This document shows, piece after piece, positions 17,832 to 37,208 of a stretch of DNA of 64,000 bases. A program made the translations under genes and the position numbers. Source of the DNA: Ensifer adhaerens. GTDB lineage: Bacteria; Pseudomonadota; Alphaproteobacteria; Rhizobiales; Rhizobiaceae. The stretch spans positions 992,001-1,056,000 of the forward strand of contig NZ_JABEKT010000002.1 of the NCBI RefSeq assembly GCF_013283195.1. The letters are read 5' to 3'. The notes under the pieces are model-generated. The model saw only the letters and a program-made list of their open reading frames with translations. It made no database searches and had not been told where the DNA came from. How positions within the stretch are numbered: the first letter of the stretch is position 1; each line of letters opens with the position of its first letter.

Positions 17832-17853
17832 TCACCGGGGCCTCCGTGTCAAC

Positions 17854-18037: not shown

Positions 18038-18044
18038 CATTGGC

Positions 18045-18557: not shown

Positions 18558-19081
18558 GGCAGGTTCCTCAATCAGAGTACGGTGAACAATCTCTACAGTG
18601 AGACACATTAACAATCGAGATCATGTCGGGTTCAGCTGTTTGCCAGGCTGGCTGCGAGAACAGATGATGCAGGGACTTCGACCTCTCGGCCGAGGTGGTG
18701 CGCGCGGTTGCCGACAAAGCGGTGAGGAAAACAGGATGGGAACAGTCTATCCGGCGACGAATGGCGTGCCGGCGGCGTTCCTGGCCCGCATCGGCTGCAA
18801 GTTGTCCCGAAATCGAACGGCTTATCATGTCTGGCATACCTGCGATCGATTTAAGCGACAGTTCCGATGCGGGAGATTCCAGGGTCGGCCGCGCAGAGAG
18901 CCAGTGCGCGCACCAGATTCCCTCTGGTAAAGAGTAAAAGCATAACTGTTGAATTATGATTTCGACCCCATAATTCATTTTTACATCACCGTTTCGCATG
19001 GCAAACTGACAAGCATCAAATTCGGGTTGCTTTGCGATGACGGTGCCGGAACGGGAGTAGACGGTGCCACAGGGAGGAAAC
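18558..19081. other. Gene-free leader upstream of the branched-chain-type ABC operon
   Basis: About 520 bases with no convincing gene; an open minus-strand frame of 171 codons here has no protein-like features. The right third becomes AT-rich and contains the inverted repeat listed at 18951-18976. The ribosome-binding site for the solute-binding-protein gene (GGGAGG) is near 19073. Confidence 0.5.
18951..18976. promoter_or_regulatory. Inverted repeat, candidate operator of the ABC importer operon
   Basis: GAATTATG (18951-18958) and CATAATTC (18969-18976) form a perfect 8-bp inverted repeat with a 10-base spacer, in an AT-rich patch about 105 bases upstream of the solute-binding-protein start. 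Overall span suits a dimeric regulator; which one is unknown. Confidence 0.4.
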
Positions 19082-20254
19082 ATGAAACAGACTTTACTGG
19101 CTGCGCTTGCAGCCCTGGCAATGAGTGGCGCTGCCTATGCCGACACGATCAAGATCGGTGTCGTCGGACCGTTTTCCGGTCCCTTCGCGCTGCAGGGCAA
19201 GAACTTCAAGGCGGGCATCGACGCCTATATGGCGGTGAACGGCAGCAAGGTCGGCGACGATGACATCGAGATCATCTATCGCGACGTGCCGCAGGCCGAT
19301 CCGGCGCAGTCCAAGGCGCTAGCACAGGAACTGGTGGTGAAGGAAGGCGTGCAGTATCTGGCCGGCTTCTATTTCACACCCGACGCAATGGCGGTGACCC
19401 CACTGCTTGAACAGGCAAACGTGCCGTTGGTGATCATGAACGCGGCGACCTCGGCGATCGTGACCAAGAGCCCGCTGGTGGTGCGCACCTCGTTTACCAC
19501 CTGGCAAACCTCGACGCCGATCGCCAAGGTGGCGAAGGATGCCGGCGTCTCCAAAGTCATCTCCGTTGTCAGCGACTATGGCCCCGGTGTCGATGCTGAA
19601 AATGCCTTCAAGGCAGGCTTCGAAGCGGCCGGCGGCCAGGTTGTCGAGGCGATCCGCATGCCGCTTGCCACCAACGACTTCTCGCCGATCATGCAGCGCA
19701 TCAAGGATTCCGGCGCCGAGGGCGTTTTTGCCTTCCTGCCGTCGGGGCCCACCACGCTCGGCTTCGTCAAGGCCTATAACGAAAACGGCTTGAAGAGCGG
19801 CGGTATCAAGTTCTTCGCACCGGGCGACCTGACGCAGGAGTCCGATCTGCCCGCGCTCGGCGAAGCGGCACTCGGGATCCAGACGACATTCCACTACGCC
19901 GTGTCGCACGATAGTCCTGAGAACAAGGCTTTCGTCGAGGCCGCTTCGAAGGCGATCGGCAATCCGGCCGAACTCTCGTTCCCGTCAGTCGGCGCCTATG
20001 ACGGCATGCATGTCATCTACAAGATGATCGAGGCCACTGGCGGCGAGCAGGACGCGCAGAAGGCGGTCGACGCAGTCAAGGGCCTTGCCTGGACCAGCCC
20101 GAGGGGGCCGGTTTCCATCGATGCCGAATCGCGGCACATCACGCAGAACATCTATCTGCGCGAAGTCGCCAAGGCCGATGACGGCACCTACTACAACAAG
20201 GAGGTTCAAACCTTCGAGAAGCAGGGCGACCCCGGCCTCGCAGCGCTGAAGTAG
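19082..20254 (+). CDS. Branched-chain-type ABC transporter periplasmic binding protein
   Basis: A 390-aa LivK-like (Peripla_BP_6) protein. It has a Sec signal peptide (Met-Lys-Gln-Thr-Leu-Leu-Ala-Ala, cleavage after Ala-Tyr-Ala at about residue 20) and the class I binding fold beginning Ile-Lys-Ile-Gly-Val-Val-Gly-Pro-Phe-Ser-Gly-Pro. Ligand cannot be told: this family binds branched-chain amino acids, urea, amides and aromatic acids. GGGAGG precedes ATG 19082. Followed by a strong hairpin and then permeases and ATPases of the same system. Confidence 0.9.
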   Translation: MKQTLLAALAALAMSGAAYADTIKIGVVGPFSGPFALQGKNFKAGIDAYMAVNGSKVGDDDIEIIYRDVPQADPAQSKALAQELVVKEGVQYLAGFYFTPDAMAVTPLLEQANVPLVIMNAATSAIVTKSPLVVRTSFTTWQTSTPIAKVAKDAGVSKVISVVSDYGPGVDAENAFKAGFEAAGGQVVEAIRMPLATNDFSPIMQRIKDSGAEGVFAFLPSGPTTLGFVKAYNENGLKSGGIKFFAPGDLTQESDLPALGEAALGIQTTFHYAVSHDSPENKAFVEAASKAIGNPAELSFPSVGAYDGMHVIYKMIEATGGEQDAQKAVDAVKGLAWTSPRGPVSIDAESRHITQNIYLREVAKADDGTYYNKEVQTFEKQGDPGLAALK

Positions 20255-24040: not shown

Positions 24041-24730
24041 TTAAACTGACGCCCGCACGCGCTCCCAGGCGTTCATCAGGTGCCGCCCCAACACTTCGGA
24101 AAGCTTGACCTTGTCGCGTGCCTCGAGCGCGACGATCATTTCGTCGTGCTCGGCGACGGCAGCTGCCCATTTCTCCGGGCCTTCGTGACCGATGAAGCGA
24201 ATGCGCTTCAGTCGGGTCTGCAGGACGCCATGCATGTCGGCAAGCGCTGCATTTTCGGCGAGCTGGACGATCGCCGAATGGATCTGCTGGTTGAGCTTGT
24301 AGTATTGCAGCCGGTCGCCGATCTTGTAGCGGCGGACCATCTCGTCATGCAGCGCACGCACTTCGGCAATGCCGGCGTCGCTTGCCGCGTCGCAGGCGAG
24401 CCTGCCCGCAAGCTCCTCCAGCGTCTGCAGCACGGTCAACATGTCGTGCACGTCCTTGGCGCTGAAGCGCTTCACGACGGCGCCGCGGCTGGGCACGAGC
24501 TCGACCAAGCCTTCGCTCGCCAGATACTTGATGGCTTCACGCAAGGGCGTGCGCGAGACGCCGAGCTGTTCGCCGAGCTGACCTTCATGCAGGCGCGTGC
24601 CTGGCGACAGATCGCCTTCGATGATCATGTCGCGCAGGTGACTGACCAGCGTGTCATGCAGAGCCGTGCGCCTGATCGGGCCGGGGCCGCCGTCGGCGCG
24701 TCTCTCCAATGGTGTGATTTCGTTCATCAT
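24041..24730 (-). CDS. GntR-family (FCD domain) regulator of the pdxA2/tct operon
   Basis: A 229-aa FadR-subfamily regulator: N-terminal winged HTH at residues ~25-90 (Leu-Gly-Glu-Gln-Leu-Gly-Val-Ser-Arg-Thr-Pro-Leu-Arg-Glu-Ala) and an alpha-helical FCD effector domain with metal-binding-type histidines (His in Gln-Gln-Ile-His, Ala-Glu-His-Asp and Gly-Arg-His-Leu-Met). It diverges from the pdxA2-tctCBA operon and an inverted repeat lies between them, so it is probably the substrate-responsive repressor of that operon. Start may be 24730 or the next codon (24727). Confidence 0.88.
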   Translation of the reverse strand: MMNEITPLERRADGGPGPIRRTALHDTLVSHLRDMIIEGDLSPGTRLHEGQLGEQLGVSRTPLREAIKYLASEGLVELVPSRGAVVKRFSAKDVHDMLTVLQTLEELAGRLACDAASDAGIAEVRALHDEMVRRYKIGDRLQYYKLNQQIHSAIVQLAENAALADMHGVLQTRLKRIRFIGHEGPEKWAAAVAEHDEMIVALEARDKVKLSEVLGRHLMNAWERVRASV

Positions 24731-24840
24731 TTCGCTTCTGCGTTTGGCGGCCGCGTGTCGGCCGTCCGTTCCCCGTGCGTGCCGATTGAATCAGCACTGT
24801 CTGATTGAAGCATGGAGGCAGGGCAGGTCGTCGTCAACAG

Positions 24841-24883
24841 AAAATGCTGCATACAGAATACAAAAGACTTGATGCAGAATTTT
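24841..24883. promoter_or_regulatory. Inverted repeat upstream of pdxA2, candidate GntR operator
   Basis: AAAATGCTGCAT (24841-24852) and ATGCAGAATTTT (24872-24883) are inverted copies with 11 of 12 positions matching and a 19-base spacer, located about 50-90 bases upstream of the pdxA2 start. Binding by the divergent GntR protein is inferred from position only. Confidence 0.45.
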
Positions 24884-24932
24884 GAATAACGTATGACAGC
24901 CGTCGAAAAGCATGAAGTGGAGGACATCTCAC

Positions 24933-25976
24933 ATGACGACCAATGGTGCTGCCGCGAACGGCGCGCGTCCTGTCATCGCGCTTGCCATGGGCGATCCCGC
25001 CGGCATCAGCCCCGAGCTGACCGCGCGGCTGCTGGCCCTTCCCGAGATCAAGGAAGCCGCCCACATCATCACGATCGGCGATCGCCGCATTCTGGATGAA
25101 GGCGCCAAGGCTGCCGGCCTGACGCTTGATCTCGAGCCCTCGACGCTCGAGGATCTCGACAAGGCCGGAACCGCTCGCCACGTGTTCGTCGACCTCGGCC
25201 ATCTCGATCCGGCAGATGTCGACCGCGGCGAAGCGACGCTTGCTGGCGGGACGTTCGCCACGCGCAACTTCCGCACGGCTCTGGAGCTGGCGCATGCCGG
25301 CAAGGCTGAAGCCGTCTGCTTCACGCCCTTCAACAAGAAGGCCATGCGCTTTGCCTATCCGGGCTATGACGACGAAATCCGCTTCGTCGCCGACGTGCTT
25401 GGTTTCACCGGCAAGGTTCGCGAATTCAATGTTCTGGAGAAGGTCTGGAATGCGCGCGTCACCTCGCATATCCCGCTGAAGGAAGTGGCCGACAACCTTT
25501 CGATCGAAGGCATCATCGCCGAGCTCGAGCTCACCCGCGCCTGCCTCAAGGAAGCCGGTCACGAAGACGCCAAGATCGCTGTTGCCGGTCTCAATCCGCA
25601 TGCCGGCGACGGCGGAAGCTTCGGTATGGAAGAGATCGACATTATCGAGCCGGCGGTCGCGAAGGCCAAAGCGCTCGGCTTCAATGTCGATGGTCCGTTC
25701 CCGGCCGACACGGTTTTCGGTCGTGCGCTCAAGGAGGGCTACAACGCCGTCCTGACCATGTACCACGACCAGGGCCAGATCGCGATGAAGCTCATGGGCT
25801 TTGACAAGGGTGTGACGATGATGGGCGGCCTGCCGTTCGCGCTCTGCACCCCGGCGCACGGCACCGCCTACGATATCGCCGGCAAGGGCATCGCCGATGT
25901 CGGTGCCAGCCGCGAGGCGCTTCTGCTCGCAGTTCGCATGGCGAAGAAAAAGGCTGCCCTCAAGGCTGCCGCCTGA
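24933..25976 (+). CDS. pdxA2: PdxA2-type 4-phospho-sugar-acid dehydrogenase
   Basis: A 347-aa protein of the PdxA family (NAD-dependent oxidation/decarboxylation of 4-phospho-hydroxyacids). Metal ligands are His179 (Thr-Ser-His-Ile-Pro), His223 (Asn-Pro-His-Ala-Gly-Asp-Gly-Gly) and His278 (Met-Tyr-His-Asp-Gln-Gly-Gln). The C-terminal Thr-Pro-Ala-His-Gly-Thr-Ala-Tyr-Asp-Ile-Ala-Gly-Lys-Gly resembles PdxA2, which acts on 4-phospho-D-threonate/erythronate, rather than pyridoxine PdxA. Context (tripartite carboxylate importer, GntR regulator) agrees with sugar-acid catabolism. Start ATG 24933 is set by GGAGG nine bases upstream. Confidence 0.85.
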   Translation: MTTNGAAANGARPVIALAMGDPAGISPELTARLLALPEIKEAAHIITIGDRRILDEGAKAAGLTLDLEPSTLEDLDKAGTARHVFVDLGHLDPADVDRGEATLAGGTFATRNFRTALELAHAGKAEAVCFTPFNKKAMRFAYPGYDDEIRFVADVLGFTGKVREFNVLEKVWNARVTSHIPLKEVADNLSIEGIIAELELTRACLKEAGHEDAKIAVAGLNPHAGDGGSFGMEEIDIIEPAVAKAKALGFNVDGPFPADTVFGRALKEGYNAVLTMYHDQGQIAMKLMGFDKGVTMMGGLPFALCTPAHGTAYDIAGKGIADVGASREALLLAVRMAKKKAALKAAA

Positions 25977-26050
25977 ATTCGCACGCTTTCAAGCACTACC
26001 GGCGCAGGAGGAGGTCTTGCGCCGTATCTCACCCAATGGGAGGACTAGAT

Positions 26051-27037
26051 ATGAAGAAATCCGTTTCACTCGCATGCATCATGGCAGCCGCATTCGGCGT
26101 TGCTGCTCCGGCCTCGGCTTTCGAGCCCGACCGTCCGGTTGAATTCGTCGTTACGGCCGGCCCGGGCGGCGGCACGGACATCTTCGCCCGCACGATCCAG
26201 GCGATCATCGGCAAGTACGAACTGATGAAGGCGCCTGTTGTCGTCACCAACAAGGGCAGCGCCGGCGGCGCCGAAGGTTTCGTCTACACGGCAACCAACA
26301 AGGGCGACGCCTACAAGCTCGCATTCGGCACCAACAATGCCTACCTGCTGCCCGTTCGCGCCAAGGTGCCCTACAAGGCCGAAGACCTGACGCCGGTTGC
26401 AGCGCTCGCCTCCGACGAGTTCATTCTGTGGGTCAATGGCAAGGCATCGTACGCAACGGCTGCCGACTTTGCCGCCAAGGCCAAGGAAGGCGGACTGAAG
26501 ATCGGCGGAAGCCAGTCGAAGGACGTCGACCAGATCCTGACCTCGATGATCAACGAGGCGACCGGCGCGACCATCAACTACATCCCGTTCAAGAGCGGTG
26601 GCGAAGCGGCTGTACAGCTCGCCGGCGAACACCTTGACGCTAACGTCAACAATCCGAGCGAAAACCTCGGTCAGTGGCAGGCCGGCATGGTCAAGCCGCT
26701 CTGCGTCTTCAAGAGCGTCAAGCTGACGAACGATGCCAAGGTTGCCGGAGACAAGGGCTGGAGCGACATCCCGACCTGCAAGGACTCCGGCATTGCCATC
26801 GACAACTACTCAATGCCGCGCACCGTCTGGCTGCCGGCCGGCGTTGAACCCGATGCGGTCAAGTTCTATGCGGACCTGATGCGCAAGGTTTCCGAAACGC
26901 CGGAGTGGGCGAAGTATCTGGCCGATACCTCGCAGTCTCCTTCCTACATCGCTGGCGACGACTTCAAGGCCGCCATCGAGATGGACGGCGCCGCAGTCGG
27001 CGAAGTTCTGAAGCGCGAAGGCTGGCTCGCCAACTAA
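26051..27037 (+). CDS. tctC: Tripartite tricarboxylate transporter binding protein (TctC family)
   Basis: A 328-aa periplasmic receptor of the TTT/Bug family. The signal peptide runs Met-Lys-Lys-Ser-Val-Ser to Ala-Ser-Ala (residue ~23). The mature protein starts Phe-Glu-Pro-Asp-Arg-Pro-Val-Glu-Phe and has the family's glycine-rich Thr-Ala-Gly-Pro-Gly-Gly-Gly-Thr-Asp. These proteins bind carboxylates; the operon suggests a sugar acid. GGGAGGA precedes ATG 26051. Followed by a large hairpin, then tctB and tctA. Confidence 0.9.
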   Translation: MKKSVSLACIMAAAFGVAAPASAFEPDRPVEFVVTAGPGGGTDIFARTIQAIIGKYELMKAPVVVTNKGSAGGAEGFVYTATNKGDAYKLAFGTNNAYLLPVRAKVPYKAEDLTPVAALASDEFILWVNGKASYATAADFAAKAKEGGLKIGGSQSKDVDQILTSMINEATGATINYIPFKSGGEAAVQLAGEHLDANVNNPSENLGQWQAGMVKPLCVFKSVKLTNDAKVAGDKGWSDIPTCKDSGIAIDNYSMPRTVWLPAGVEPDAVKFYADLMRKVSETPEWAKYLADTSQSPSYIAGDDFKAAIEMDGAAVGEVLKREGWLAN

Positions 27038-27054
27038 AACTGGCGATATATCGG

Positions 27055-27119
27055 GACGGGCGCTTCTGTAGCGCCGCGCGTCAAGTCTGACGCCTACAGG
27101 ATGCTTCAGAGCGCCCGTC
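27055..27119 (+). terminator. Three-tier hairpin between tctC and tctB
   Basis: Nested perfect pairings: GACGGGCGCT (27055-27064) with AGCGCCCGTC (27110-27119); CTGTAG (27066-27071) with CTACAG (27094-27099); GCGTCA (27078-27083) with TGACGC (27088-27093). It starts 17 bases after the tctC stop and has no T-tract. Likely protects tctC mRNA and lowers tctBA expression relative to the binding protein. Confidence 0.6.
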
Positions 27120-27142
27120 AACCGGTTTGAAAGGTCACGATC

Positions 27143-27643
27143 ATGAGTGAGAACAGTGCGAATGGGCTCTCCCGCTTCGCGGTGGAGCTTGGCGTAGCCG
27201 CGTTGACTGGCATCTTTGGCGCCGCCGTCTGCTATGGCGCCTTCGATGTCGGCGCCGGGTGGAGCGATTTTGGCCCCGAGGCTGGCTATTTTCCCTTCTA
27301 CATCGGTGCTCTGATCATCCTGGGAAGCGTCGCGAATGCGATCGGCGCTTTCGTGAAACATCGCGGCACAGGTGACATCTTCATCGACGGTTCCCGTGCC
27401 CGCGTCGTCGCCTCGTTCTTCTTGCCACTTATCGCCTTTGCCGGCGTTTCCGCCTGGCTCGGGCTCTATGTCGGCACTGCCCTCTACATCGCCGGCGCGA
27501 TGCTCTTCCAGGGGCGTTACAAGTGGTGGATCGCGCTGCCGTCAGGCGTTGCCGTTTCGCTCTTCTTCTTCATCGTATTCGAGATCGGCTTCAAGGTTCC
27601 GCTTTTGAAGGGACCGGTCGAGGCCTGGTTCGGGATCTACTGA
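27143..27643 (+). CDS. tctB: Tripartite tricarboxylate transporter small membrane subunit (TctB family)
   Basis: A 166-aa membrane protein with four hydrophobic segments (starting near residues 10, 48, 85 and 130): Val-Ala-Ala-Leu-Thr-Gly-Ile-Phe-Gly-Ala-Ala-Val, Phe-Tyr-Ile-Gly-Ala-Leu-Ile-Ile-Leu-Gly, and others. The Phe-Gly-Pro-Glu-Ala-Gly-Tyr-Phe-Pro-Phe motif between the first two is typical of TctB. Sits between tctC and tctA, as is standard for these importers. Confidence 0.88.
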   Translation: MSENSANGLSRFAVELGVAALTGIFGAAVCYGAFDVGAGWSDFGPEAGYFPFYIGALIILGSVANAIGAFVKHRGTGDIFIDGSRARVVASFFLPLIAFAGVSAWLGLYVGTALYIAGAMLFQGRYKWWIALPSGVAVSLFFFIVFEIGFKVPLLKGPVEAWFGIY

Positions 27644-27679
27644 TCCCGACCTCTTAAAAGTTTCCCCGGGAGGAATGAC

Positions 27680-29233
27680 ATGGAAAATATCGGTCTTCTG
27701 ATCGATGGCTTCGGCCACATCCTCAGCTGGAATCACATCCTGCTGATGATGGTCGGCGTCACGCTCGGCATCCTCGTCGGCGTTCTGCCCGGCCTCGGTG
27801 CGCCAAACGGCGTTTCGCTGCTGCTTCCGCTGACCTTCTCCATGGATCCGATCTCCGCGATCATCCTGCTCTCCTGCATGTATTGGGGCGCGCTGTTCGG
27901 CGGTTCGACGACATCCATCCTGTTTAACATCCCGGGCGAGCCGTCCTCGGTAGCGACCACCTTCGACGGCTATCCGATGGCCAAGGCAGGCCAGGCGAGC
28001 CGTGCCTTGACGCTGGCTTTCGTGTCGGCCGGCATTGGTGCGCTTGCCGGCGTCGTCATGATCACGCTCCTGTCGGGCTGGGTCGCCAACTTCGCTCTGC
28101 GCTTCTCGTCGCCGGAATATTTCGCGGTCTACTTCCTCGCCTTTGCCAGCTTCATCTCGATGGGCGCGCAATCGCCGTTCAAGACCCTCGTGTCGATGAT
28201 GATGGGCTTTGCACTTGCCTCCGTCGGCATGGACACGATCTCCGGCGACCTGCGCCTGACTTTCGACATCCCGACACTGATCAAGGGCGTCAGCTTCCTG
28301 ATTGCCGTGATGGGCCTGTTCGGCATCGGCGAACTCCTGCTGACGACGGAAGAAGGCCTGCGCTTCGAAGGCATCAAGGCACGCGTCAAGCTTGCCGAAA
28401 TCGGCCGCACGCTGGTCGAAATCCCGCGCTACTGGCTGACGATCGCCCGCTCGACCATTATCGGCATCTGGATGGGCATCACGCCCGCCGGCCCGACCGC
28501 GGCCTCCTTCATGAGCTACGGCGTCGCCCGTCGCTCTGCGCGCGACAAGTCGAAGTTCGGTAAGGGCGATCCGCGCGGTATCGTCGCACCGGAAACCGCC
28601 GACCACTCGGCCGGCACCTCCGCACTGCTACCGATGTTGGCGCTCGGCGTTCCAGGCTCGGCCACGGCCGCCGTCATGATGGGCGGCCTGATGATCTGGG
28701 GTCTCACCCCCGGTCCGATGCTCTTTACCGACCGGCCTGATTTCGTCTGGGGCCTGATCGCCTCGATGTATCTCGGCAACGTCGTCGCCGTCATCTTGGT
28801 GCTTGCCACCGTACCGCTCTACGCATCGATCCTGCGCGTGCCGTTCTCGATCATCGGCCCGATCATCGTGGCCGTCATCTTCTCCGGCGCCTATCAGGTT
28901 GCCAATTCAGTCTCTGATATCTTCATGGTCATCGGCTTCGGCGTGCTCGGCTACGTCTTCAAAAAGCTTGATTATCCGCTGGCGCCGCTGGTGCTCGCCA
29001 TGGTGCTCGGCGACAAGGCCGAGGATGCCTTCCGCCAGTCGATGCTGCTGTCGAGCGGTTCGCTCAACATCTTCTGGTCGAACGCCCTGGTTTCGTCTCT
29101 GATGGCGCTTGGCCTGGCAATGCTGCTGTCGCCTGTCGTCTTCGGACTGATCGGCCTGGTTCGCAAGCGCAAGAGCGATGAGACATCGAAAGACGATGCG
29201 ACATCGCAGGGCGGCGGTAGCGCGGCGGCTTGA
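27680..29233 (+). CDS. tctA: Tripartite tricarboxylate transporter large permease (TctA family)
   Basis: A 517-aa polytopic permease with about twelve hydrophobic segments. Family motifs: Gly-Val-Leu-Pro-Gly-Leu-Gly-Ala-Pro-Asn-Gly (residues ~34-44), Tyr-Trp-Gly-Ala-Leu-Phe-Gly-Gly-Ser-Thr-Thr-Ser-Ile-Leu-Phe-Asn-Ile-Pro-Gly-Glu (~72-91) and the duplicated Leu-Gly-Val-Pro-Gly-Ser-Ala-Thr-Ala-Ala-Val in the second half. GGGAGG precedes the start. Uses an ion gradient to import the carboxylate delivered by TctC. Confidence 0.93.
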   Translation: MENIGLLIDGFGHILSWNHILLMMVGVTLGILVGVLPGLGAPNGVSLLLPLTFSMDPISAIILLSCMYWGALFGGSTTSILFNIPGEPSSVATTFDGYPMAKAGQASRALTLAFVSAGIGALAGVVMITLLSGWVANFALRFSSPEYFAVYFLAFASFISMGAQSPFKTLVSMMMGFALASVGMDTISGDLRLTFDIPTLIKGVSFLIAVMGLFGIGELLLTTEEGLRFEGIKARVKLAEIGRTLVEIPRYWLTIARSTIIGIWMGITPAGPTAASFMSYGVARRSARDKSKFGKGDPRGIVAPETADHSAGTSALLPMLALGVPGSATAAVMMGGLMIWGLTPGPMLFTDRPDFVWGLIASMYLGNVVAVILVLATVPLYASILRVPFSIIGPIIVAVIFSGAYQVANSVSDIFMVIGFGVLGYVFKKLDYPLAPLVLAMVLGDKAEDAFRQSMLLSSGSLNIFWSNALVSSLMALGLAMLLSPVVFGLIGLVRKRKSDETSKDDATSQGGGSAAA

Positions 29234-29274
29234 CGGAGCCGCCGCACCAAACTTTGAAGACTTGGGGGAACGCC

Positions 29275-30213
29275 ATGGCAAATGCGCCGCGCAAATGGAA
29301 CCGTGACACCTGGCCGATTGCGGCCGCGATGATCCAGTATCCGAACATTCTGGCCGACGGCCGCTCGGTTCAGGACCAGTCGGTCGAGGAATGGGCTCTG
29401 ACGCTGGACGACGTCGTCGATGCCGGCTTTACCGAGCTCGACCCGACCGACAGCTGGATCCGGCTTGCGGATCTGCCGCCGGCTCGGCTCGAAAGCTTCG
29501 TCAAGCTGACGCGCGATCTCGGCCTGACCATGCCGGGGATCTCCACCGCGCGCCGCAGCGTCATCGATCCTGTCCATGGCGACGAGTACCTCGCCTATGG
29601 GCACCGGGTGATCGATACGGCGGCGGCAATTGGGGCCGGTTCTGTTTCCTTCGGCTTCTTCGGTCCGTTGACCGACGCGCAGAAGAAGGTGCTGTGGTTC
29701 TGGACCGTCGATGGCGTCAAGAACCCCGATGACGCCGCCATCTGGCAGAAGGGTTTGACGCGCATTCGCGAGCTTGGCCGCCATGCGGAAGAGCTCGGCA
29801 TCGAGCTGGCGCTCGAAATGTACGAAGACACCTATATCGGCTCGGCCGACAGCGCCGTGCGCTTCGTCACCGACGTCGGCCTGTCGAATGTCGGCATCAA
29901 CGCCGACCTCGGCAACCTGATCCGCCTGCATCGTCCGGTCGAGCACTGGCAGGAGATGATGGCCAAGGTTGCGCCGTTCGCCAAATACTGGCACGTCAAG
30001 AATTACAACCGCACCGAGGACGAGACTTCGGGGTTGATCGTCACCCATCCGGCCCCGCTGGAGTTCGGCGTGATCAACTACCGGACCGCCATTCGCCTGG
30101 CGCTTTCGCACGGGTTCCAGAGCCCGTTCCTCTGCGAGCATTATGGTGGCGATGGTCTCTCCGTCAGCGCGACCAACCGGGATTACCTGAGGCGCATTCT
30201 GCCTCGCGACTAA
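29275..30213 (+). CDS. Xylose isomerase-like TIM-barrel sugar isomerase/epimerase
   Basis: A 312-aa AP-endonuclease-2/xylose isomerase-like TIM barrel. Candidate metal/active-site residues at strand ends are Glu in Leu-Ala-Leu-Glu-Met-Tyr-Glu-Asp, Asp in Gly-Ile-Asn-Ala-Asp-Leu-Gly-Asn, His in Tyr-Trp-His-Val-Lys-Asn-Tyr and Glu in Leu-Cys-Glu-His-Tyr-Gly-Gly. Such enzymes isomerise or epimerise ketoses, hydroxypyruvate or sugar acids. Start ATG 29275 follows GGGGGA. Lies between the importer and the DhaK-DhaL kinase, so it probably handles the imported compound or its phosphorylated ketose. Confidence 0.8.
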   Translation: MANAPRKWNRDTWPIAAAMIQYPNILADGRSVQDQSVEEWALTLDDVVDAGFTELDPTDSWIRLADLPPARLESFVKLTRDLGLTMPGISTARRSVIDPVHGDEYLAYGHRVIDTAAAIGAGSVSFGFFGPLTDAQKKVLWFWTVDGVKNPDDAAIWQKGLTRIRELGRHAEELGIELALEMYEDTYIGSADSAVRFVTDVGLSNVGINADLGNLIRLHRPVEHWQEMMAKVAPFAKYWHVKNYNRTEDETSGLIVTHPAPLEFGVINYRTAIRLALSHGFQSPFLCEHYGGDGLSVSATNRDYLRRILPRD

Positions 30214-30227
30214 GGGAATAAGTAGCG

Positions 30228-31946
30228 ATGACCACGATCTTTGACGCACCGGAAGATTTCGCCGTAACCGCGCTCGCCGGCTTCAGCTCCATCTATGCCC
30301 GCAATGTCCGCCTGGTGAAGGGCGGCGTCGTGCGCTCGACCAAGGTGCCGAAGGGCAAGGTCGCGGTCGTGATCGGTGGCGGCTCTGGCCACTATCCGGC
30401 CTTTGCCGGCTATGTCGGCCCGGGCTTGGCGGATGCCGCCGTTGCCGGTGATGTCTTTGCCTCGCCGTCGACTGCTGCTGTCGCACGCGTTTGCCGCCAT
30501 GCCGACCAGGGCGGCGGTGTCCTGCTCGGCTTTGGCAACTATGCCGGCGACGTGCTTAATTTCGGCGTTGCCGCCGAGCGGCTGCGCGCCGAAGGCGTCG
30601 ACGTACGCATCGTGCCGGTGACAGACGACGTTGCCAGCGCTGCCGCTGACATCGCCGCCAAGCGCCGTGGCATTGCCGGTGACCTCGTTGTCTTCAAGAT
30701 CGCGGGCGCTGCGGCCGAAGCCGGCCTGTCGCTGGACGAAGTCGAGCGGGTCAGCCGTCTTGCCAATGATCGCACCGTCTCCTTCGGTGTGGCCTTCGGC
30801 GGCTGCACGCTTCCGGGCGCGAACCACCCGCTCTTCACCGTTCCGAAGGGCGAAATGGCACTAGGCCTCGGCATCCATGGCGAGCCGGGGATCAGCGAAG
30901 AAAAGATTGTGTCTGCGACCGAGCTTGCGAAGCTGCTCGTCGGCAAGCTGCTGGCCGAACGCCCGGCCGGAACCAAGAAGGTCGCGCCGGTGCTGAACGG
31001 CCTCGGGTCGACCAAGTACGAAGAGCTTTTCGTTCTGTGGGTCTCCGTCGAGAAGGAATTGAAGGCCGCCGGCCTCGACATCGTCGATCCGGAATGCGGC
31101 GAATTCGTCACCAGCCTGGACATGCAGGGTTGCTCGCTGTCGCTGCTCTGGCTCGACGAAGAGCTTGAAACCTATTGGCGTGCGCCCTGCGATGCGCCGG
31201 TGCTCCGCAAGGGCGTGATCATCAACGCCGAGCCGGCGACCGACGTGATTTCCGACGAGGATGGCCCAGCGACCTTCGCGCCTGCCTCGCAGGCGTCGAA
31301 GGAAAGCGGCAAGTGCATTGCCCGGCTGATCGGGAAGGTCGCCGACGCCCTGAGGGAAGCTGAAGACGAACTCGGCCGCATCGATGCCGTGGCCGGCGAC
31401 GGTGATCATGGCCAGGGCATGCGCCGCGGTTCGGCGGCAGCCAGTGAGGCCGCTAACGTAGCAGTTGCAGGCGGCGCCGGCGCTGCCAGCGTGCTTGCTG
31501 CCGCAGGCGATGCCTGGGCTGACCGTGCGGGTGGAACCTCCGGTGCGATCTGGGGTCTGCTTCTTCGCTCCTGGAGCAACGCGTTTTCCGACAACGACAA
31601 GCCGTCGGATGCGGCCGTCGTCGCAGGTGCGCGGCTGGCGCTGGAAGGCGTGACCCGCCTCGGCCGCGCCCGCATCGGCGACAAGACGCTGGTCGATGCG
31701 CTCGTCCCGTTCGTTGATACGCTGGAGCGGGAATTCGGGGTCCACAAGTCGCTGATCGCGGCCTGGGAGATCGCAGCCAAAGCCGCGACTGACGCGGCCG
31801 AGGCCACCTCCAGCCTGACGCCGAAGCTCGGTCGCGCGAGACCTCTCGCCGAAAAGAGCATCGGCCATCCGGATGCGGGCGCCGTTTCGCTTGCGCTGAC
31901 TGCGCGCGTGGCTGCCGACCTTCTGAAGGAAGCCGTCGACGCCTAA
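30228..31946 (+). CDS. DhaK-DhaL fusion kinase (dihydroxyacetone/erythrulose kinase family)
   Basis: A 572-aa ATP-dependent fusion kinase. The DhaK half (residues ~1-330) has Gly-Gly-Gly-Ser-Gly-His (His55), Gly-Asn-Tyr-Ala-Gly-Asp (Asp108) and the substrate-binding His217 in Gly-Ile-His-Gly-Glu-Pro-Gly. The DhaL half (~360-570) has the Mg-binding Gly-Asp-Gly-Asp-His-Gly (residues ~390-395) and Gly-Gly-Thr-Ser-Gly-Ala. This architecture phosphorylates short ketoses such as dihydroxyacetone or erythrulose. Next to pdxA2 and a TctABC importer, its substrate may be a C4 ketose or an acid derivative. Last gene of the operon; a strong terminator follows. Confidence 0.88.
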   Translation: MTTIFDAPEDFAVTALAGFSSIYARNVRLVKGGVVRSTKVPKGKVAVVIGGGSGHYPAFAGYVGPGLADAAVAGDVFASPSTAAVARVCRHADQGGGVLLGFGNYAGDVLNFGVAAERLRAEGVDVRIVPVTDDVASAAADIAAKRRGIAGDLVVFKIAGAAAEAGLSLDEVERVSRLANDRTVSFGVAFGGCTLPGANHPLFTVPKGEMALGLGIHGEPGISEEKIVSATELAKLLVGKLLAERPAGTKKVAPVLNGLGSTKYEELFVLWVSVEKELKAAGLDIVDPECGEFVTSLDMQGCSLSLLWLDEELETYWRAPCDAPVLRKGVIINAEPATDVISDEDGPATFAPASQASKESGKCIARLIGKVADALREAEDELGRIDAVAGDGDHGQGMRRGSAAASEAANVAVAGGAGAASVLAAAGDAWADRAGGTSGAIWGLLLRSWSNAFSDNDKPSDAAVVAGARLALEGVTRLGRARIGDKTLVDALVPFVDTLEREFGVHKSLIAAWEIAAKAATDAAEATSSLTPKLGRARPLAEKSIGHPDAGAVSLALTARVAADLLKEAVDA

Positions 31947-31973: not shown

Positions 31974-32009
31974 AAAAAGGGCGCGGGTCCTCCCAACCGC
32001 GCCCTTTTT
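31974..32009. terminator. Bidirectional terminator between the kinase and phn operons
   Basis: AAAAAGGGCGCGG (31974-31986) and CCGCGCCCTTTTT (31997-32009) form a perfect 13-bp inverted repeat. The GC stem is bounded by T-runs in both directions, serving both convergent operons. Confidence 0.9.
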
Positions 32010-32037: not shown

Positions 32038-32652
32038 TTAGGCGTAGCGCACCAGAAATTCCTCGGCCGTGAGGTCGCGGAAATCGTCGAGCGCCTTGCG
32101 CAGACGCAGGTGATCCCAATCCCACCAGGCGAGGCTGTCCATGCGCTCGCCGATGCCGTCATTGAACCGGTCACGGATGAGCTTCGCCGGCACGCCACCG
32201 ACGATCGTGTAGGGGGCGACGTCCTTGGAGACGACCGCGCCGGCGCCGATCACCGCACCATTGCCGACATTGACGCCGGGCAGAAGTGTTGCACCGTGTC
32301 CGATCCAGACATCATGGCCGATGGTCACCCGGTTTGACCGGCGCCAGGCGAAGAGATCGTGGTCGACGTCGGTATCGTCCCAATAGTTGGGCGCGCGGTA
32401 GGTGAAGTGGTGCAGCGTCGCGCGCCAGGTCGGATGGTTGGTGGCGTTGATGCGCACGGCGGCGGCGATGTTGACGAACTTGCCGACCGTCGCGCACCAG
32501 ATCGAGCCGTCCTGCATGATGTAGGAATAGTCGCCGAACTCGACCTCTTCCAGGCGCGAGCGCTCCTGGATTTCGGTGTAGCGGCCAAGCGTCGAGTTGT
32601 TGACGCTGGCTGTCGGGTGGATGAAGGGCTCGAGCCCTAGTTTCTGGCTCAT
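32038..32652 (-). CDS. Hexapeptide-repeat acyltransferase of the phosphonate operon
   Basis: A 204-aa left-handed beta-helix transferase with imperfect hexapeptides at residues ~10-75 and ~108-150 (Val-Thr-Ile-Gly-His-Asp-Val-Trp-Ile-Gly-His-Gly-Ala, Val-Gly-Asn-Gly-Ala-Val-Ile-Gly-Ala-Gly-Ala-Val-Val). It resembles the transferase-hexapeptide protein often found in C-P lyase operons, thought to modify a phosphonate or a phosphoribosyl intermediate; the acyl acceptor is not known. Its ATG overlaps the phnL stop by 4 bases, so it is the last gene of phnGHIJKL. Confidence 0.88.
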   Translation of the reverse strand: MSQKLGLEPFIHPTASVNNSTLGRYTEIQERSRLEEVEFGDYSYIMQDGSIWCATVGKFVNIAAAVRINATNHPTWRATLHHFTYRAPNYWDDTDVDHDLFAWRRSNRVTIGHDVWIGHGATLLPGVNVGNGAVIGAGAVVSKDVAPYTIVGGVPAKLIRDRFNDGIGERMDSLAWWDWDHLRLRKALDDFRDLTAEEFLVRYA

Positions 32653-33356
32653 GCGGCAGCATTTCGCGGCGAGAAGGCCGACACGTCGAGAATGCGATCG
32701 GCAACCACGTCGCGCACTTCCTCGTCGTGGAAGATGCCGATCAGGGCCGTGCCCTTGGCCTTCTTCTCGGCGATCATCTCGACCACCACCGCACGGTTCT
32801 TTGCGTCGAGCGAGGCCGTCGGCTCATCGAGCAGCAGGATCTTGTGGTCGGTGATGAAGCCGCGGGCGATGTTGACACGCTGCTGCTCGCCGCCGGAGAA
32901 GGTCGCCGGCGGCAATGACCACAGCGCCGTCGGCAGGTTGAGCTTCGACAGAAGCTCAGCGGCGCGGGCGCGGGCGTCTTCGATGGCAACACCGCGCCCC
33001 TGCAGCGGCTCGGCGACGATGTCGAGCGCCGACACCCGCGGCACGACCCGCAGGAACTGGCTGACATAGCCGAGCGTTGCGCGCCGCACCTCCAGCACGG
33101 TGCGCGGCTCGGCGGTGGCCAGGTTCACCAGCTTGCCGTCGTGCTCCATCAGGATCTGGCCTTCGTCGACGCCGTAATTGCCGTAGAGCATTTTCAGGAT
33201 CGAGCTCTTGCCGACGCCGGAGGGGCCGCCGAGCACTACGCACTCACCAGCTTTTACCGAGAAGGTGACGTTGGCGACGACGGGCAAGCGGATACCGTCG
33301 CGCAGGTGCATGGTGAAGCTCTTTGCGACTTCGGAAACTACAAGGGGCGTAGCCAT
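32649..33356 (-). CDS. phnL: C-P lyase complex ATPase-like subunit PhnL
   Basis: A 235-aa ABC-type ATPase: Walker A Gly-Pro-Ser-Gly-Val-Gly-Lys-Ser-Ser, signature Phe-Ser-Gly-Gly-Glu-Gln-Gln-Arg, Walker B Ile-Leu-Leu-Leu-Asp-Glu-Pro-Thr. In spite of the fold it is not a transporter; PhnL works with PhnGHI in forming the ribosyl phosphonate triphosphate. Three bases separate it from phnK. Confidence 0.94.
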   Translation of the reverse strand: MATPLVVSEVAKSFTMHLRDGIRLPVVANVTFSVKAGECVVLGGPSGVGKSSILKMLYGNYGVDEGQILMEHDGKLVNLATAEPRTVLEVRRATLGYVSQFLRVVPRVSALDIVAEPLQGRGVAIEDARARAAELLSKLNLPTALWSLPPATFSGGEQQRVNIARGFITDHKILLLDEPTASLDAKNRAVVVEMIAEKKAKGTALIGIFHDEEVRDVVADRILDVSAFSPRNAAA

Positions 33357-33359
33357 TGT

Positions 33360-34136
33360 TTACACCTGCAAAATGGAGGAGACGAGGAGCTGGGTATAAG
33401 GCTCGCGCGGATCGTCGAGCACGCGGTCGGTCAGGCCCTGCTCGATGACGGCGCCGTCCTTCATCACCATCATGCGATGCGACAGAAGCCGGGCGACGGC
33501 GAGATCGTGGGTGACGATGATGGCGGCAAGGCCAAGATCGTGCACGAGACCGCGCACGAGATCGAGCAGGCGCGCCTGGACCGAAACGTCGAGGCCGCCG
33601 GTCGGCTCGTCCATGAAGACGAGGCGAGGGGAGGTGACGAGATTGCGGGCAATCTGCAGGCGTTGGCGCATGCCGCCGGAGAAGGCGCGGGGCTGGTCGT
33701 CGATGCGGTCGATGCCGATCTCGACCCGTTCCAGCCAGTCGCTGGCGGCCGCACGGATGTTGCCATAGTGCCGATCACCGACCGCCATCAGCCGCTCGCC
33801 GACATTGGCGCCCGCCGAGACGGTCATCCTCAGGCCGTCGGCCGGGTTCTGGTGGACGAAGCCCCAGTCGGTGCGCATCAGGAAGCGGCGCTCGGCCTCG
33901 CCCATGCGGGCGAGATCGCGGTACTGACCGTCACGCATATGATATTCGACGATGCCCGATGTCGGCATCAGCCGGGTCGATAGGCAGGACAGAAGCGTCG
34001 TCTTGCCGGAGCCGGATTCACCGACGATCGCCAGCACTTCTCCTGGAAAAAGGTCAAAGGAGACGTTCCGGCAACCGATGCGGCTGCCGTAGAATTTCGA
34101 GACGTCGTTGACTTTGAGAAGCGGTACGGCACTCAT
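33360..34136 (-). CDS. phnK: C-P lyase complex ATPase subunit PhnK
   Basis: A 258-aa ABC-type ATPase: Walker A Gly-Glu-Ser-Gly-Ser-Gly-Lys-Thr-Thr, signature Phe-Ser-Gly-Gly-Met-Arg-Gln-Arg, Walker B Leu-Val-Phe-Met-Asp-Glu-Pro-Thr. The Arg-Thr-Asp-Trp-Gly-Phe-Val-His-Gln-Asn-Pro-Ala-Asp-Gly-Leu segment is typical of PhnK. It binds the PhnGHIJ core through PhnJ. Start overlaps the phnJ stop by 4 bases. Confidence 0.95.
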   Translation of the reverse strand: MSAVPLLKVNDVSKFYGSRIGCRNVSFDLFPGEVLAIVGESGSGKTTLLSCLSTRLMPTSGIVEYHMRDGQYRDLARMGEAERRFLMRTDWGFVHQNPADGLRMTVSAGANVGERLMAVGDRHYGNIRAAASDWLERVEIGIDRIDDQPRAFSGGMRQRLQIARNLVTSPRLVFMDEPTGGLDVSVQARLLDLVRGLVHDLGLAAIIVTHDLAVARLLSHRMMVMKDGAVIEQGLTDRVLDDPREPYTQLLVSSILQV

Positions 34137-35011
34137 TCTGCGGCTTCCTTTCGGGCAAGCATGTGTCCGGCATGGCCGCAGTCGCGGCGGTCTTCACAAT
34201 GGTCGGTGTCGGAGCAGGCGAACATGCGCCCGCCCTTGTCGTCGAGCACCACTTCGTCGAGGTAGACATTCTCGGCGCCGCAGAGCGCGCAGGGCTTGTC
34301 GAACTTCTGAACTTCGAAAGGGTGATCCTCGAAGTCGAGGCTGACGACCTCGGTATAGGGCGGAACCGCATAGATGCGCTTTTCGCGACCGGCGCCGAAA
34401 AGCTGTAGCGCCTCCGACATATGCATCTTCGGATTGTCGAACTTCGGCGTCGGTGACGGATCCATGACGTAACGCCCCTCGACCTTGACCGGATAGGCAT
34501 AGGTGGTGGCGATATGACCGTTGCGGGCGATATCTTCGTAGAGCTTCACATGCATCAAGCCGTATTCCTCGAGCGCATGCATCTTGCGGGTCTCGGTCTC
34601 GCGCGGCTCGAGGAAGCGCAAGGGTTCGGGGATCGGCACCTGGTAGACCAGCGTCTGGCCCTCGCGCAGGCCTTCCTCCGGAATGCGGTGGCGCGTCTGG
34701 ATGATCGTTGCTTCCTTCGTCTTGGTCGTCACCGCGACGTCGGCGACCTTCTGGAAGAAGGCGCGTATCGACACGGCATTGGTGGTGTCGTCGGCGCCCT
34801 GGTCGATAACCTTCAGCACGTCCTTCGGGCCGAGGATCGAGGCGGTAACCTGCACGCCGCCGGTGCCCCAGCCATAAGGCATCGGCATTTCACGCGACGC
34901 GAAGGGAACCTGGTAGCCGGGGATGGCAATCGCCTTCAGGATGGCGCGGCGGATCATCCGCTTGGTCTGTTCGTCCAGATAGGCAAAGTTGTAGGTGGCG
35001 AGGTCGGTCAT
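34133..35011 (-). CDS. phnJ: C-P lyase PhnJ, radical SAM carbon-phosphorus bond-cleaving enzyme
   Basis: A 292-aa catalytic subunit that cleaves the C-P bond of 5-phosphoribosyl-1-phosphonate. The Fe-S cysteines are Cys241, Cys244, Cys266 and Cys272 (CX2CX21CX5C), the same numbering as E. coli PhnJ. The Tyr-Gly-Trp-Gly-Thr-Gly-Gly-Val-Gln element (residues ~46-54) is also conserved. Start overlaps the phnI stop (ATGA). Confidence 0.97.
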   Translation of the reverse strand: MTDLATYNFAYLDEQTKRMIRRAILKAIAIPGYQVPFASREMPMPYGWGTGGVQVTASILGPKDVLKVIDQGADDTTNAVSIRAFFQKVADVAVTTKTKEATIIQTRHRIPEEGLREGQTLVYQVPIPEPLRFLEPRETETRKMHALEEYGLMHVKLYEDIARNGHIATTYAYPVKVEGRYVMDPSPTPKFDNPKMHMSEALQLFGAGREKRIYAVPPYTEVVSLDFEDHPFEVQKFDKPCALCGAENVYLDEVVLDDKGGRMFACSDTDHCEDRRDCGHAGHMLARKEAAE

Positions 35012-36114
35012 TCGGCGGCCTCCTTCATGCCGTCCTGGCTGCCGGTCCGGGCAGCGTCATAGTCGCGGCGCATGCGCCGGACGAGGTCTAGTTCCGCCTG
35101 GAAGTCGACGTAATGCGGCAGCTTCAGGTGCTCGACGAAACCCGTCGCCTGGACGTTGTCCGCATGCGAAATGACGAATTCCTGATCTTGTGCCGGCGCG
35201 ACAATGTCTTCGCTGAACTCGTCGGTGCGAAGTGCGCGATCGACCAGCGACATCGACATTGCCTTGCGCTCGCTCTGGCCGAAGACGAGGCCGTAGCCGC
35301 GGGTGAACTGCGGCGGCTGCTTGGCCGAGCCCATGAACTGATTGACCATCTGGCACTCCGTCACGCGGACAACGCCGAGCGAGACGGCAAAACCGAGCTC
35401 GGGCAGATCCAGTTCGACTTCCACCTCGCCGATGCGTACTTCCCCAACGAAGGGATGGGTGCGGCCGTAGCCGCGCTGGGTCGAATAGGCGAGCGCCAGC
35501 AGGAAGCCCTCGTCGCCGCGCGCAAGAGCCTGCAGGCGCAGGTCGCGGGCCATCGGAAACTCCATCGGCTCGCGCGTGAGGTCGCCCATGACATGGCCTT
35601 CCGGCATGCGGCCGTCGCCCTCGATCAGGCCCTCGCCGTCGAGAATGTCAGAGACGCGCATCACATGTTCGCCCGGTTCCTTGACGGCCGGTTCCTCGAC
35701 CGCGGCGTCATCGATCAACGAGGGATCGAGCAGGCGGTGGGTATAGTCGAAGGTCGGACCCAGCAATTGCCCGCCTGGCAGATCCTTGTAGGTGGCCGAC
35801 ACGCGGCGCTCGACTTTCATGGTTGCGGTATCGACCGGCTCGGAATAGCCGAAGCGCGGCAATGTCGTGCGGTAGGCGCGCAGGATGAAGATCGCCTCGA
35901 TCATGTCGCCGCGTGCTTGGCGCACGGCAAGCGCCGCGAGTTCCCGGTCGTATAGCGAGGCCTCGGCCATGACGCGGTCGACGGCAAGGCCAAGCTGTTC
36001 GACGACCTGCTGGATGGTGATCGACGGCAGCGTGCGGTCGCCGCGGCGGCGATCGGCAAGGAGGCGGTGGGCGTTGGCAATGGCGGCTTCGCCGCCCTTT
36101 ACAGCAACATACAT
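35008..36114 (-). CDS. phnI: C-P lyase core subunit PhnI
   Basis: A 368-aa subunit acting as nucleosidase in the C-P lyase core, coupling phosphonate to the ribose 1-position of ATP with PhnG, PhnH and PhnL. The N-terminus Met-Tyr-Val-Ala-Val-Lys-Gly-Gly-Glu-Ala-Ala-Ile and the Gln-Leu-Leu-Gly-Pro-Thr-Phe-Asp-Tyr-Thr-His-Arg-Leu-Leu segment are family hallmarks. Three bases after phnH; overlaps phnJ. Confidence 0.96.
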   Translation of the reverse strand: MYVAVKGGEAAIANAHRLLADRRRGDRTLPSITIQQVVEQLGLAVDRVMAEASLYDRELAALAVRQARGDMIEAIFILRAYRTTLPRFGYSEPVDTATMKVERRVSATYKDLPGGQLLGPTFDYTHRLLDPSLIDDAAVEEPAVKEPGEHVMRVSDILDGEGLIEGDGRMPEGHVMGDLTREPMEFPMARDLRLQALARGDEGFLLALAYSTQRGYGRTHPFVGEVRIGEVEVELDLPELGFAVSLGVVRVTECQMVNQFMGSAKQPPQFTRGYGLVFGQSERKAMSMSLVDRALRTDEFSEDIVAPAQDQEFVISHADNVQATGFVEHLKLPHYVDFQAELDLVRRMRRDYDAARTGSQDGMKEAAE

Positions 36115-36117
36115 GGG

Positions 36118-36726
36118 TTAAACCTCCTGTCGGGCAATGCGGGTGGTGCGCGGCAGGCAGAGCACGCTGTCGCCTGATGTCAGCACGAGGTCGATGCCGC
36201 GCGGGAAGATGGCGCGGTTGGCACTCCAGAAATCGAGGAAGACTTCAGGCAGGCCACGCACGGCGATGGTGACGTCATCCTTGATGCCGGGGCCACGTGC
36301 CGTGAGCGGCACGCCGCCCGAAAGCGCTTCGATCTCGATCACGAGCGTCGTCGAGCGATCCGGATATTCCTGGGTGCCGAGCGAAAACTGGTCGAAGCCG
36401 GGCACCGGTGCGCCCTTCTCGATGATGGCAAAGCGGGCATCCGTCTTGCTGTCGGTCACAGTCGCGCCGGTGTGGAACGCGATCCATTGCGGAACTGCAG
36501 ACTTGGCAAGGGCCGGCGTCAGCCAGACGGGCGTGTCGTGATCGCAAAGCGTCAGGGCGACGGCGCCGGCAGCGGCACCCATCGGTGATGGCGGAACGCT
36601 CGACGCTTCCAGGCGCATGATCTGTCCCGGACGGGCAAAGCCATCCATCAGGCTCTTGAAGACGGATTGGGCGGAAAACACCGGGTCAGCGAAGGCGCCG
36701 GCGAAGATTTGCGATTGGCTGGCCAT
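36118..36726 (-). CDS. phnH: C-P lyase core subunit PhnH
   Basis: A 202-aa core subunit of the PhnGHIJ complex. It has Phe-Arg-Ser-like N-terminal Val-Phe-Lys-Ser-Leu-Met-Asp-Gly-Phe-Ala-Arg-Pro-Gly, the Leu-Cys-Asp-His-Asp-Thr-Pro-Val-Trp-Leu segment and the Arg-Gly-Pro-Gly-Ile segment of PhnH. Start overlaps the phnG stop (TGATG). Confidence 0.95.
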   Translation of the reverse strand: MASQSQIFAGAFADPVFSAQSVFKSLMDGFARPGQIMRLEASSVPPSPMGAAAGAVALTLCDHDTPVWLTPALAKSAVPQWIAFHTGATVTDSKTDARFAIIEKGAPVPGFDQFSLGTQEYPDRSTTLVIEIEALSGGVPLTARGPGIKDDVTIAVRGLPEVFLDFWSANRAIFPRGIDLVLTSGDSVLCLPRTTRIARQEV

Positions 36727-37193
36727 CAGTCGTCTCCGCGAACCATGGTGAAAAAGTCGACGCGCGTGGCAGCGGTTTCCTCAGCCGTGCGGCGGTCCTC
36801 CGTGTCAATGCGCGAAGCGATCTGCCGATGAAGTGCCTCGACGGCTGCCCGGTTGGCATCGCGCTGGAAAAGGGCATCGAAGATTGCGGCAAGGCGGGCC
36901 CGCTGCTTGTCAGTACCGAGCAGTTGCCCATGGCCGATCTCGCCGGTCGATAGCCGGACCGTGGCGCGGGAGACGGTCGCTTCGCCGAGATTGAAGGCAT
37001 CGCCGCCGCCGCCGATGCGGCCGCGCACCATGACGAGACCGGTCTCCGGCCCGCGAACGGGCGAAACATCTGGCTTGTCGGCAAGTGCCTCCCAGGCTGC
37101 GTTGAGTTCTTCAAAAGACGCGCGGGCGAGCAGCCGCATGCATTCCTTGCGTGCCATGTCCGGCGGACTTTCCTGTTTCAGCTTCGCATCCAT
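36726..37193 (-). CDS. phnG: C-P lyase core subunit PhnG
   Basis: A 155-aa core subunit, first gene of phnGHIJKL. The Arg-Lys-Glu-Cys-Met-Arg-Leu-Leu-Ala-Arg-Ala segment near the start and Val-Arg-Gly-Arg-Ile-Gly-Gly-Gly-Gly-Asp-Ala-Phe-Asn-Leu-Gly-Glu-Ala-Thr-Val in the middle are typical. ATG 37193 is chosen because GAGGTG lies six bases upstream; the frame opens at a GTG (37202) that is part of that site. Transcription is probably driven by the Pho box at 37262-37279 and blocked by PhnF at 37209-37226. Confidence 0.94.
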   Translation of the reverse strand: MDAKLKQESPPDMARKECMRLLARASFEELNAAWEALADKPDVSPVRGPETGLVMVRGRIGGGGDAFNLGEATVSRATVRLSTGEIGHGQLLGTDKQRARLAAIFDALFQRDANRAAVEALHRQIASRIDTEDRRTAEETAATRVDFFTMVRGDD

Positions 37194-37208
37194 CACTTTC
37201 ACCTCAAA

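Follow-up and report, generated by a model that had tools for sequence, protein, structure and literature searches.

Gene content and conservation of the operon

We analysed a 64,000-nucleotide stretch of the genome (7.07 Mb) of Ensifer adhaerens, a soil bacterium associated with plants; the stretch is referred to here as the window, with a focus on an operon at positions 24041 to 31946 that joins a PdxA-family dehydrogenase and a tripartite tricarboxylate transporter to a TIM-barrel protein and a DhaK-DhaL kinase. A regulator of the GntR/FCD type (24041..24730, minus strand; PF00392 and PF07729 over cut-off) is divergent from the remaining genes, which lie on the plus strand in the order PdxA-like dehydrogenase (24912..25976, likely start 24933, after GGAGGA; PF04166), solute-binding protein TctC (26036..27037, likely start 26051; PF03401), small membrane subunit TctB (27143..27643; PF07331), large membrane subunit TctA (27680..29233; PF01970), xylose-isomerase-like TIM barrel of the AP_endonuc_2 family (open reading frame 29230..30213, likely start 29275) and DhaK-DhaL fusion kinase (30228..31946; Dak1 and Dak2). 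All seven genes are open, exceed the Pfam cut-offs and fall in the families under which they were first listed, and the transporter is represented by all three of its families.

A scan of species genomes with an alignment of the TIM barrel yielded 497 relatives, of which the best 80, dominated by close relatives, were kept; later gene counts were made by tblastn with reference proteins. Because 47 of these 80 loci keep the whole order of the window, from the divergent GntR gene through PdxA, TctC, TctB, TctA and the TIM barrel to DhaKL (type A), and a further 13 carry PdxA-TIM-DhaKL, the gene order is conserved beyond chance. The first-pass annotation, which was made from the sequence alone, was right to describe an operon divergent from a GntR gene. 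Counting genes at most 8 kb away from the TIM barrel, 61 of the 80 loci have PdxA, 57 TctC and 68 DhaKL. The nearest matches to the TIM-barrel protein come from Ensifer, the best being Ensifer sp. HO-A22 at 96%, and Sinorhizobium meliloti 1021 carries a type A operon on pSymB (locus L015). Of 516 matching plasmid records, 100 carry a PdxA of the window's type with an identity of at least 60%. A phylum-wide scan of 349 genomes found the TIM barrel in 4, the source genome included, which is too few for statistics.

In type B loci, more distant TctCBA genes lie on the opposite strand together with a gene of the DRL family, which we take to be isomeroreductase-like and whose nearest solved relatives are 3upl/3upy; in Paracoccus, all these genes are consecutive on one strand. 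Some Rhizobium loci (L022 at 8900-19109, L076 and L078) have two PdxAs each of the divergent subgroup described below, one with the TIM barrel and DhaKL, the other accompanied by TctCBA and DRL on the opposite strand; the TIM-barrel match of L022 is split in two pieces. In L077 (18554-19192 onward) and L079 (10052-10699 onward), OtnC- and OtnK-like genes follow TctCBA-DRL and occupy the place that the second PdxA has in L022, L076 and L078.

A divergent PdxA subgroup and the DUF1537 kinases

The window's PdxA scores 280.6 bits against PF04166 (cut-off 27), 252.3 bits against TIGR00557 (PdxA, 4-hydroxythreonine-4-phosphate dehydrogenase; cut-off 290.35) and 197.2 bits against NF002891 (D-threonate 4-phosphate dehydrogenase; curated cut-off 583). 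Because it falls below both NCBIfam cut-offs, "pdxA2", the name given to it in the first-pass annotation, is a misnomer. In an alignment of 83 PdxA rows longer than 250 residues, the metal histidines H186, H230 and H285 are present in every row, and a lysine and the three metal histidines are retained when the window's protein is compared with the five solved chains 2hi1, 6e85, 4jqp, 1ps7 and 1ps6. These chains also have a GHT motif, an Asn and an Arg in common, which we take to correspond to the substrate-binding residues H136, T137, N283 and R292 of E. coli PdxA; the window's PdxA has DEI, Thr302 and Leu311 in their place. The motif starts with DE and is followed by Thr and then by Leu, Val or Ile in 78 of the 83 rows, the window included, and the 5 canonical rows are the source genome's own three other PdxAs, two of them counted twice. 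The same residue change occurs in relatives of 42-53% identity from Methylobacterium, Agrobacterium and Caballeronia. Judged by its residues, the window's PdxA belongs to a separate subgroup and is not PdxA2. Terephthalate dihydrodiol dehydrogenase acts on an unphosphorylated acid, and by analogy the divergent PdxA subgroup would do so too.

Two of the more distant relatives lie among other genes. On a plasmid of Agrobacterium leguminum (L017, 4486-9981), an L-threonate cluster ends in a PdxA of the divergent subgroup (42%) that is annotated as 4-hydroxythreonine-4-phosphate dehydrogenase. On a plasmid of Methylobacterium nodulans (L016, 6682-11252), a PdxA of the subgroup (53%) is accompanied by an MFS transporter, an amidohydrolase and an NAD(P)-dependent oxidoreductase, and tblastn found neither the TIM barrel nor DhaKL in this locus.

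The operon contains no DUF1537 gene, as the first-pass annotation had observed, and five are found elsewhere in the genome. One of the other PdxA genes directly follows a DUF1537 gene (contig C15), and another is separated by ~3 kb from a DUF1537 match, which is on the opposite strand (contig C14). The same annotation had raised the possibility that one of these kinases is co-regulated with the operon, and we searched for such a gene by means of a conserved operator-like motif, AAATGCTGCATACAGAATACAAAAGACTTG... (24842..24879, plus strand; core 24848-24865), that is shared by the upstream regions. ATACAAAA is present in 63 and TGCATACA in 58 of 72 GntR-PdxA upstream regions, the window's among the 72, while upstream regions from f45, a family, conceivably the Halomonadaceae, in another class of the phylum, reach only 9-11 bits with the motif profile. 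Since a whole-genome search with the core gave an exact match only at the operon, plus one site with 2 mismatches, the motif ties no DUF1537 gene to the operon. The route described for D-threonate and D-erythronate, in which a DUF1537 kinase works with PdxA2 (Zhang 2016 and Thiaville 2016, as cited in PMC9997740 and PMC10971088), likewise combines a PdxA-family dehydrogenase and a kinase in sugar-acid catabolism. In contrast, the present operon has no DUF1537 kinase, its PdxA is without the canonical substrate positions, and its kinase is of the ketose type, most likely acting after decarboxylation.

Genes linked to the kinase and to the TIM barrel

With 750.2 bits against NF011049 (PRK14479 family, DhaK-DhaL fusion; cut-off 492), the kinase is in line with the ketose-type fusion that had been proposed; its score for TIGR02361 (glycerone kinase) is 379.8 bits, under the cut-off of 575. 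Enzymes of the DhaK type use a histidine to bind neutral ketones, and the DhaK-site histidines are retained in the window's protein. In a Sinorhizobium metagenome-assembled genome (L039) and in Ensifer sp. LCM 4579 (L040), a gene like that of triose-phosphate isomerase (TPI) and rpiB directly follow the DhaKL of a type A operon; the same two genes cluster with the TIM barrel in two Gluconacetobacter species, in metagenome-assembled genomes of Acetobacteraceae and Accumulibacter, and in others. In f45, where one DhaKL copy was taken from each genome examined, both the TPI-like isomerase and RpiB genes flank 29 of 32 DhaKL copies with at least 52% identity, and at least one of them flanks 31 of 32. 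By comparison, among the 18 f45 paralogue copies (39% identity or less) that were given loci, which are part of all paralogues, 7 have rpiB beside them and none has the TPI-like gene.

The window operon itself is without this isomerase pair. The source genome has the pair at another place, C1:3177622-3178825, where its neighbours are an FGGY kinase and an EryC-like TIM barrel; together we take these genes to be the make-up of an erythritol operon. Since the TPI-like protein also scores above the cut-off for ordinary triose-phosphate isomerase, a LerI role for it rests on its position. A DhaKL kinase with a TPI-like isomerase and RpiB also characterises a route for L-erythrulose that goes by the names EryH-EryI as well. 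PMC10733421 describes LerK, LerI (a TpiA homologue) and DerI as an L-erythrulose route, which according to it and to PMC12780249 leads to erythrose 4-phosphate; there, L-erythrulose comes from tetritols, whereas here an imported acid would yield it through oxidation and decarboxylation. Genomic linkage thus identifies the window's DhaKL as, most likely, an L-erythrulose 1-kinase of the LerK type, and we consider the L-erythrulose end of the acid route highly probable. The kinase most likely acts last, on free L-erythrulose after decarboxylation. The first-pass annotation had favoured a phosphorylated acid route, which is disfavoured by the lost substrate positions of PdxA and by the neighbourhood of the kinase group, with its TPI-like isomerase and RpiB; on the same two grounds we rejected a scheme in which DhaKL phosphorylates the acid at the start.

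In f45, the kinase (at least 52% identity) is present in all 21 TIM-bearing genomes compared with 2 of 20 TIM-free genomes. Further sampling, made as a control, told against this profile: with 26 more TIM-free genomes the kinase was found in 11 of 46, and inside genus g174 it is present in 8/8 TIM-bearing and 8/10 TIM-free genomes. The profile is mostly a genus effect, and since the kinase is common in TIM-free g174 genomes, the kinase module also exists without the TIM barrel. We therefore rejected presence and absence as proof once the difference had shrunk to that seen in g174, and it is physical linkage that carries the argument.

The TIM barrel has a changing dehydrogenase partner. Within 8 kb of it in 108 loci (L163, a duplicate of L021, was dropped), with partners counted at 40% identity or more, we found PdxA in 73, a gene of the 3-hydroxyacyl-CoA-dehydrogenase family (3HCDH) in 25, neither in 10 and both in none. 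A separate survey of neighbouring genes left aside the short loci L104-L108, L117-L119 and L123-L143, some of them replaced by longer stretches. In f45, 8 of 21 loci read GntR | PdxA-TctCBA-DRL-TIM, while in the other 13 the TIM barrel adjoins a 3HCDH gene, 11 of these with a GntP-type permease. In one f45 genome (L121), the two versions occur less than 10 kb apart (coordinates 2-1373 and 8171-11619): a PdxA (60%) with a divergent GntR gene, and GntP-TIM-3HCDH, whose TIM barrel is 9.1 kb from the PdxA. The 3HCDH protein of L121 meets no NCBIfam cut-off and has among its PDB relatives lambda-crystallin, which we take to be L-gulonate 3-dehydrogenase. In a tree of 105 TIM barrels (L023, L028, L045 and L163 dropped), the partner labels do not each form one clade; loci with the label "DenD only" or "none", of which some are truncated, inflate the change counts, which are at least 6 for 3HCDH and at least 4 for PdxA. 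A Streptomyces locus has a 3-hydroxyisobutyrate-dehydrogenase-type enzyme, nearest to L-threonate dehydrogenase (217, cut-off 350). In Acetobacteraceae and in two f45 genomes, the TIM barrel has as a neighbour a gene with 62-68% identity to one of L023 that scores above the cut-off for D-erythronate dehydrogenase.

The hydroxyl that enzymes of the partner families oxidise is beta or alpha to an acid group, so that the shared step would be formation of an oxo acid, which the TIM barrel then handles. If L-erythrulose is the product, the simplest task for the TIM barrel would be to remove CO2 from a C5 3-oxo acid, and the odds that it is a decarboxylase appear to us about even. Its nearest solved relative is 5tnv, whose title gives no function, and it scores below the 300-bit cut-off of NF051856 (D-psicose/ketose 3-epimerase). 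Homology to EryC appears doubtful: the source genome's EryC-like protein belongs to the same Pfam family, and BLASTP gave no match between the two (best E 0.65).

A candidate route, the imported acid and the flanking genes

Comparison establishes the gene content, the divergent PdxA subgroup, the association of the kinase with the isomerase pair and the replacement of PdxA by another dehydrogenase family next to the TIM barrel; we infer the individual reactions, their order, the C5 size of the acid and the enzyme that would lose CO2. TctABC would import a C5 sugar acid, and the PdxA-like enzyme would oxidise this acid, in its unphosphorylated form, at the C3 hydroxyl, which is beta to the carboxylate. 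The resulting 3-oxo acid would be converted to L-erythrulose and CO2 by the metal-dependent TIM barrel, and DhaK-DhaL would form L-erythrulose 1-phosphate. The TPI-like isomerase and RpiB of the erythritol-type operon would then yield D-erythrose 4-phosphate. We give this route as a whole a probability of roughly 0.5, and regard a C5 acid as the somewhat favoured starting compound.

The individual pieces resemble known pathways; the substrate and the combination are proposals. In the L-gulonate route, L-gulonate 3-dehydrogenase acts first and decarboxylation of 3-dehydrogulonate then gives L-xylulose. As in our proposal, an aldonate is oxidised at C3 by an enzyme of the 3HCDH family and decarboxylated to a ketose one carbon shorter, but here the compounds would be one carbon shorter, the decarboxylase has a different fold and, in the window's version, the dehydrogenase is another. 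The oxidative D-apiose pathways likewise have a C5 acid, a 3-oxo acid and L-erythrulose from the decarboxylase branch. They pass through 3-oxo-isoapionate (PMC6302742 and PMC11747546, the latter of which enumerates the known D-apiose enzymes). In contrast with these pathways, none of the seven operon genes is a DUF1537 kinase or RuBisCO-like, and the dehydrogenase is PdxA or 3HCDH. The earlier suggestion that the pathway is undescribed stands in part: neither the gene set nor an account of the pathway turned up in the titles and abstract openings surveyed, which is weak evidence of absence, as key subscription papers fall outside that survey.

Two alternatives assign the decarboxylation to PdxA. 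The TIM barrel could be a ketose 3-epimerase, with PdxA alone oxidising and decarboxylating a D-pentonate to D-erythrulose, which the TIM barrel would convert to L-erythrulose. We consider this unlikely: the partner is a 3HCDH-family dehydrogenase in 25 of the 108 loci, that family is not known to decarboxylate, and no other decarboxylase candidate was noticed beside it in the two annotated 3HCDH loci, L120 and L121. A free sugar as the source would be possible, with an iron alcohol dehydrogenase (L120) or an L-idonate 5-dehydrogenase (L019) a few genes away. In the other scheme, a mirror image of the DUF1537-PdxA2 route, PdxA would convert unphosphorylated threonate or erythronate to dihydroxyacetone and CO2, and DhaKL would form dihydroxyacetone phosphate. 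DhaKL does belong to a dihydroxyacetone kinase family, the TPI-like isomerase could use dihydroxyacetone phosphate, the 42% PdxA relative of L017 has the same residue changes within its L-threonate cluster, and in some loci the TIM barrel has threonate genes and genes resembling D-erythronate dehydrogenase as neighbours. However, close orthologues of the kinase also go with RpiB, which is useless for dihydroxyacetone phosphate, and the TIM barrel is left without an evident role, which makes this C4 scheme quite improbable.

The candidates for the imported acid are L-threo-pentonates and apionate-type acids. If the acid is D-apionate or isoapionate, the operon would be a version of the published D-apiose pathways, in which PdxA or the DXR-like DRL forms 3-oxo-isoapionate. 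Those pathways end in L-erythrulose, and Carter in 2018 reportedly found that 3-oxo-isoapionate is decarboxylated to this ketose. DRL stands in line with PdxA, TctCBA and the TIM barrel in the 8 f45 loci mentioned above, and in 7 of the 80 loci a DRL 60-62% identical to that of Paracoccus is no further than 8 kb from the TIM barrel, while an eighth locus has only a 26% relative. In contrast, the window operon is without DRL, its genome holds no more than a distant, partial match (35% over 120 residues), and the tertiary C3 of D-apionate is not oxidisable by PdxA-type chemistry; we regard an apionate substrate as rather doubtful. This partial match lies in a 200-residue open frame, perhaps a degraded gene, at 7534-8133 of L124 (C14:212000-228000).

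Returning to the preferred C3 oxidation and decarboxylation, linear L-pentonates would give L-erythrulose, and the epimers L-xylonate and L-lyxonate would give the same one. We tentatively propose, while holding it on balance unlikely, that the operon degrades L-threo-pentonates (L-xylonate, L-lyxonate and perhaps their precursor 2-carboxy-L-pentonate) from plant vitamin C. Under conditions mimicking the apoplast, ascorbate gives 2-carboxy-L-pentonate and from it L-xylonate and L-lyxonate (PMC11066805), with related ascorbate products treated in PMC6225978; 2-carboxy-L-pentonate, as a branched dicarboxylate, would perhaps suit an importer of the tricarboxylate type. Many carriers are, judged by name, rhizobia or plant isolates, and three Gluconacetobacter loci (L098, L100 and L101) have genes for L-threonate, which is likewise derived from ascorbate, close to the TIM barrel. 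An L-pentonate substrate is opposed by a different route for L-lyxonate in Pseudomonas aeruginosa (PMC6336799) and by the DRL gene of other operon versions, which suggests branched acids.

If the vitamin C proposal is true, bacteria would scavenge plant ascorbate waste in parallel to the L-threonate pathway. More generally, what annotation calls the vitamin B6 enzyme PdxA may be a sugar-acid dehydrogenase acting on unphosphorylated acids, and the route proposed here would give a function to the TIM-barrel family. A short substrate list and a few enzyme assays become directly testable, and the laboratory strain S. meliloti 1021 has the same operon.

The operon is followed by a terminator-like hairpin with a T run (31974..32009, plus strand) that was recognised by eye; its loop of 10 exceeds the limits of the terminator scan, which did not list it. 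A sigma-70 scan gave 2 sites (1.2 expected), none of them before PdxA. Genes of a branched-chain amino-acid type ATP-binding cassette (ABC) importer lie 5' of the operon and carbon-phosphorus (C-P) lyase genes lie 3' of it on the opposite strand; in the three annotated relatives read, neither set is next to the operon. In the C-P lyase region (window 32649-37202, minus strand), two open reading frames between the lyase genes were left unnamed by the NCBIfam scan at E 1e-40, and PhnL, PhnK, PhnH and PhnG score over their NCBIfam cut-offs.

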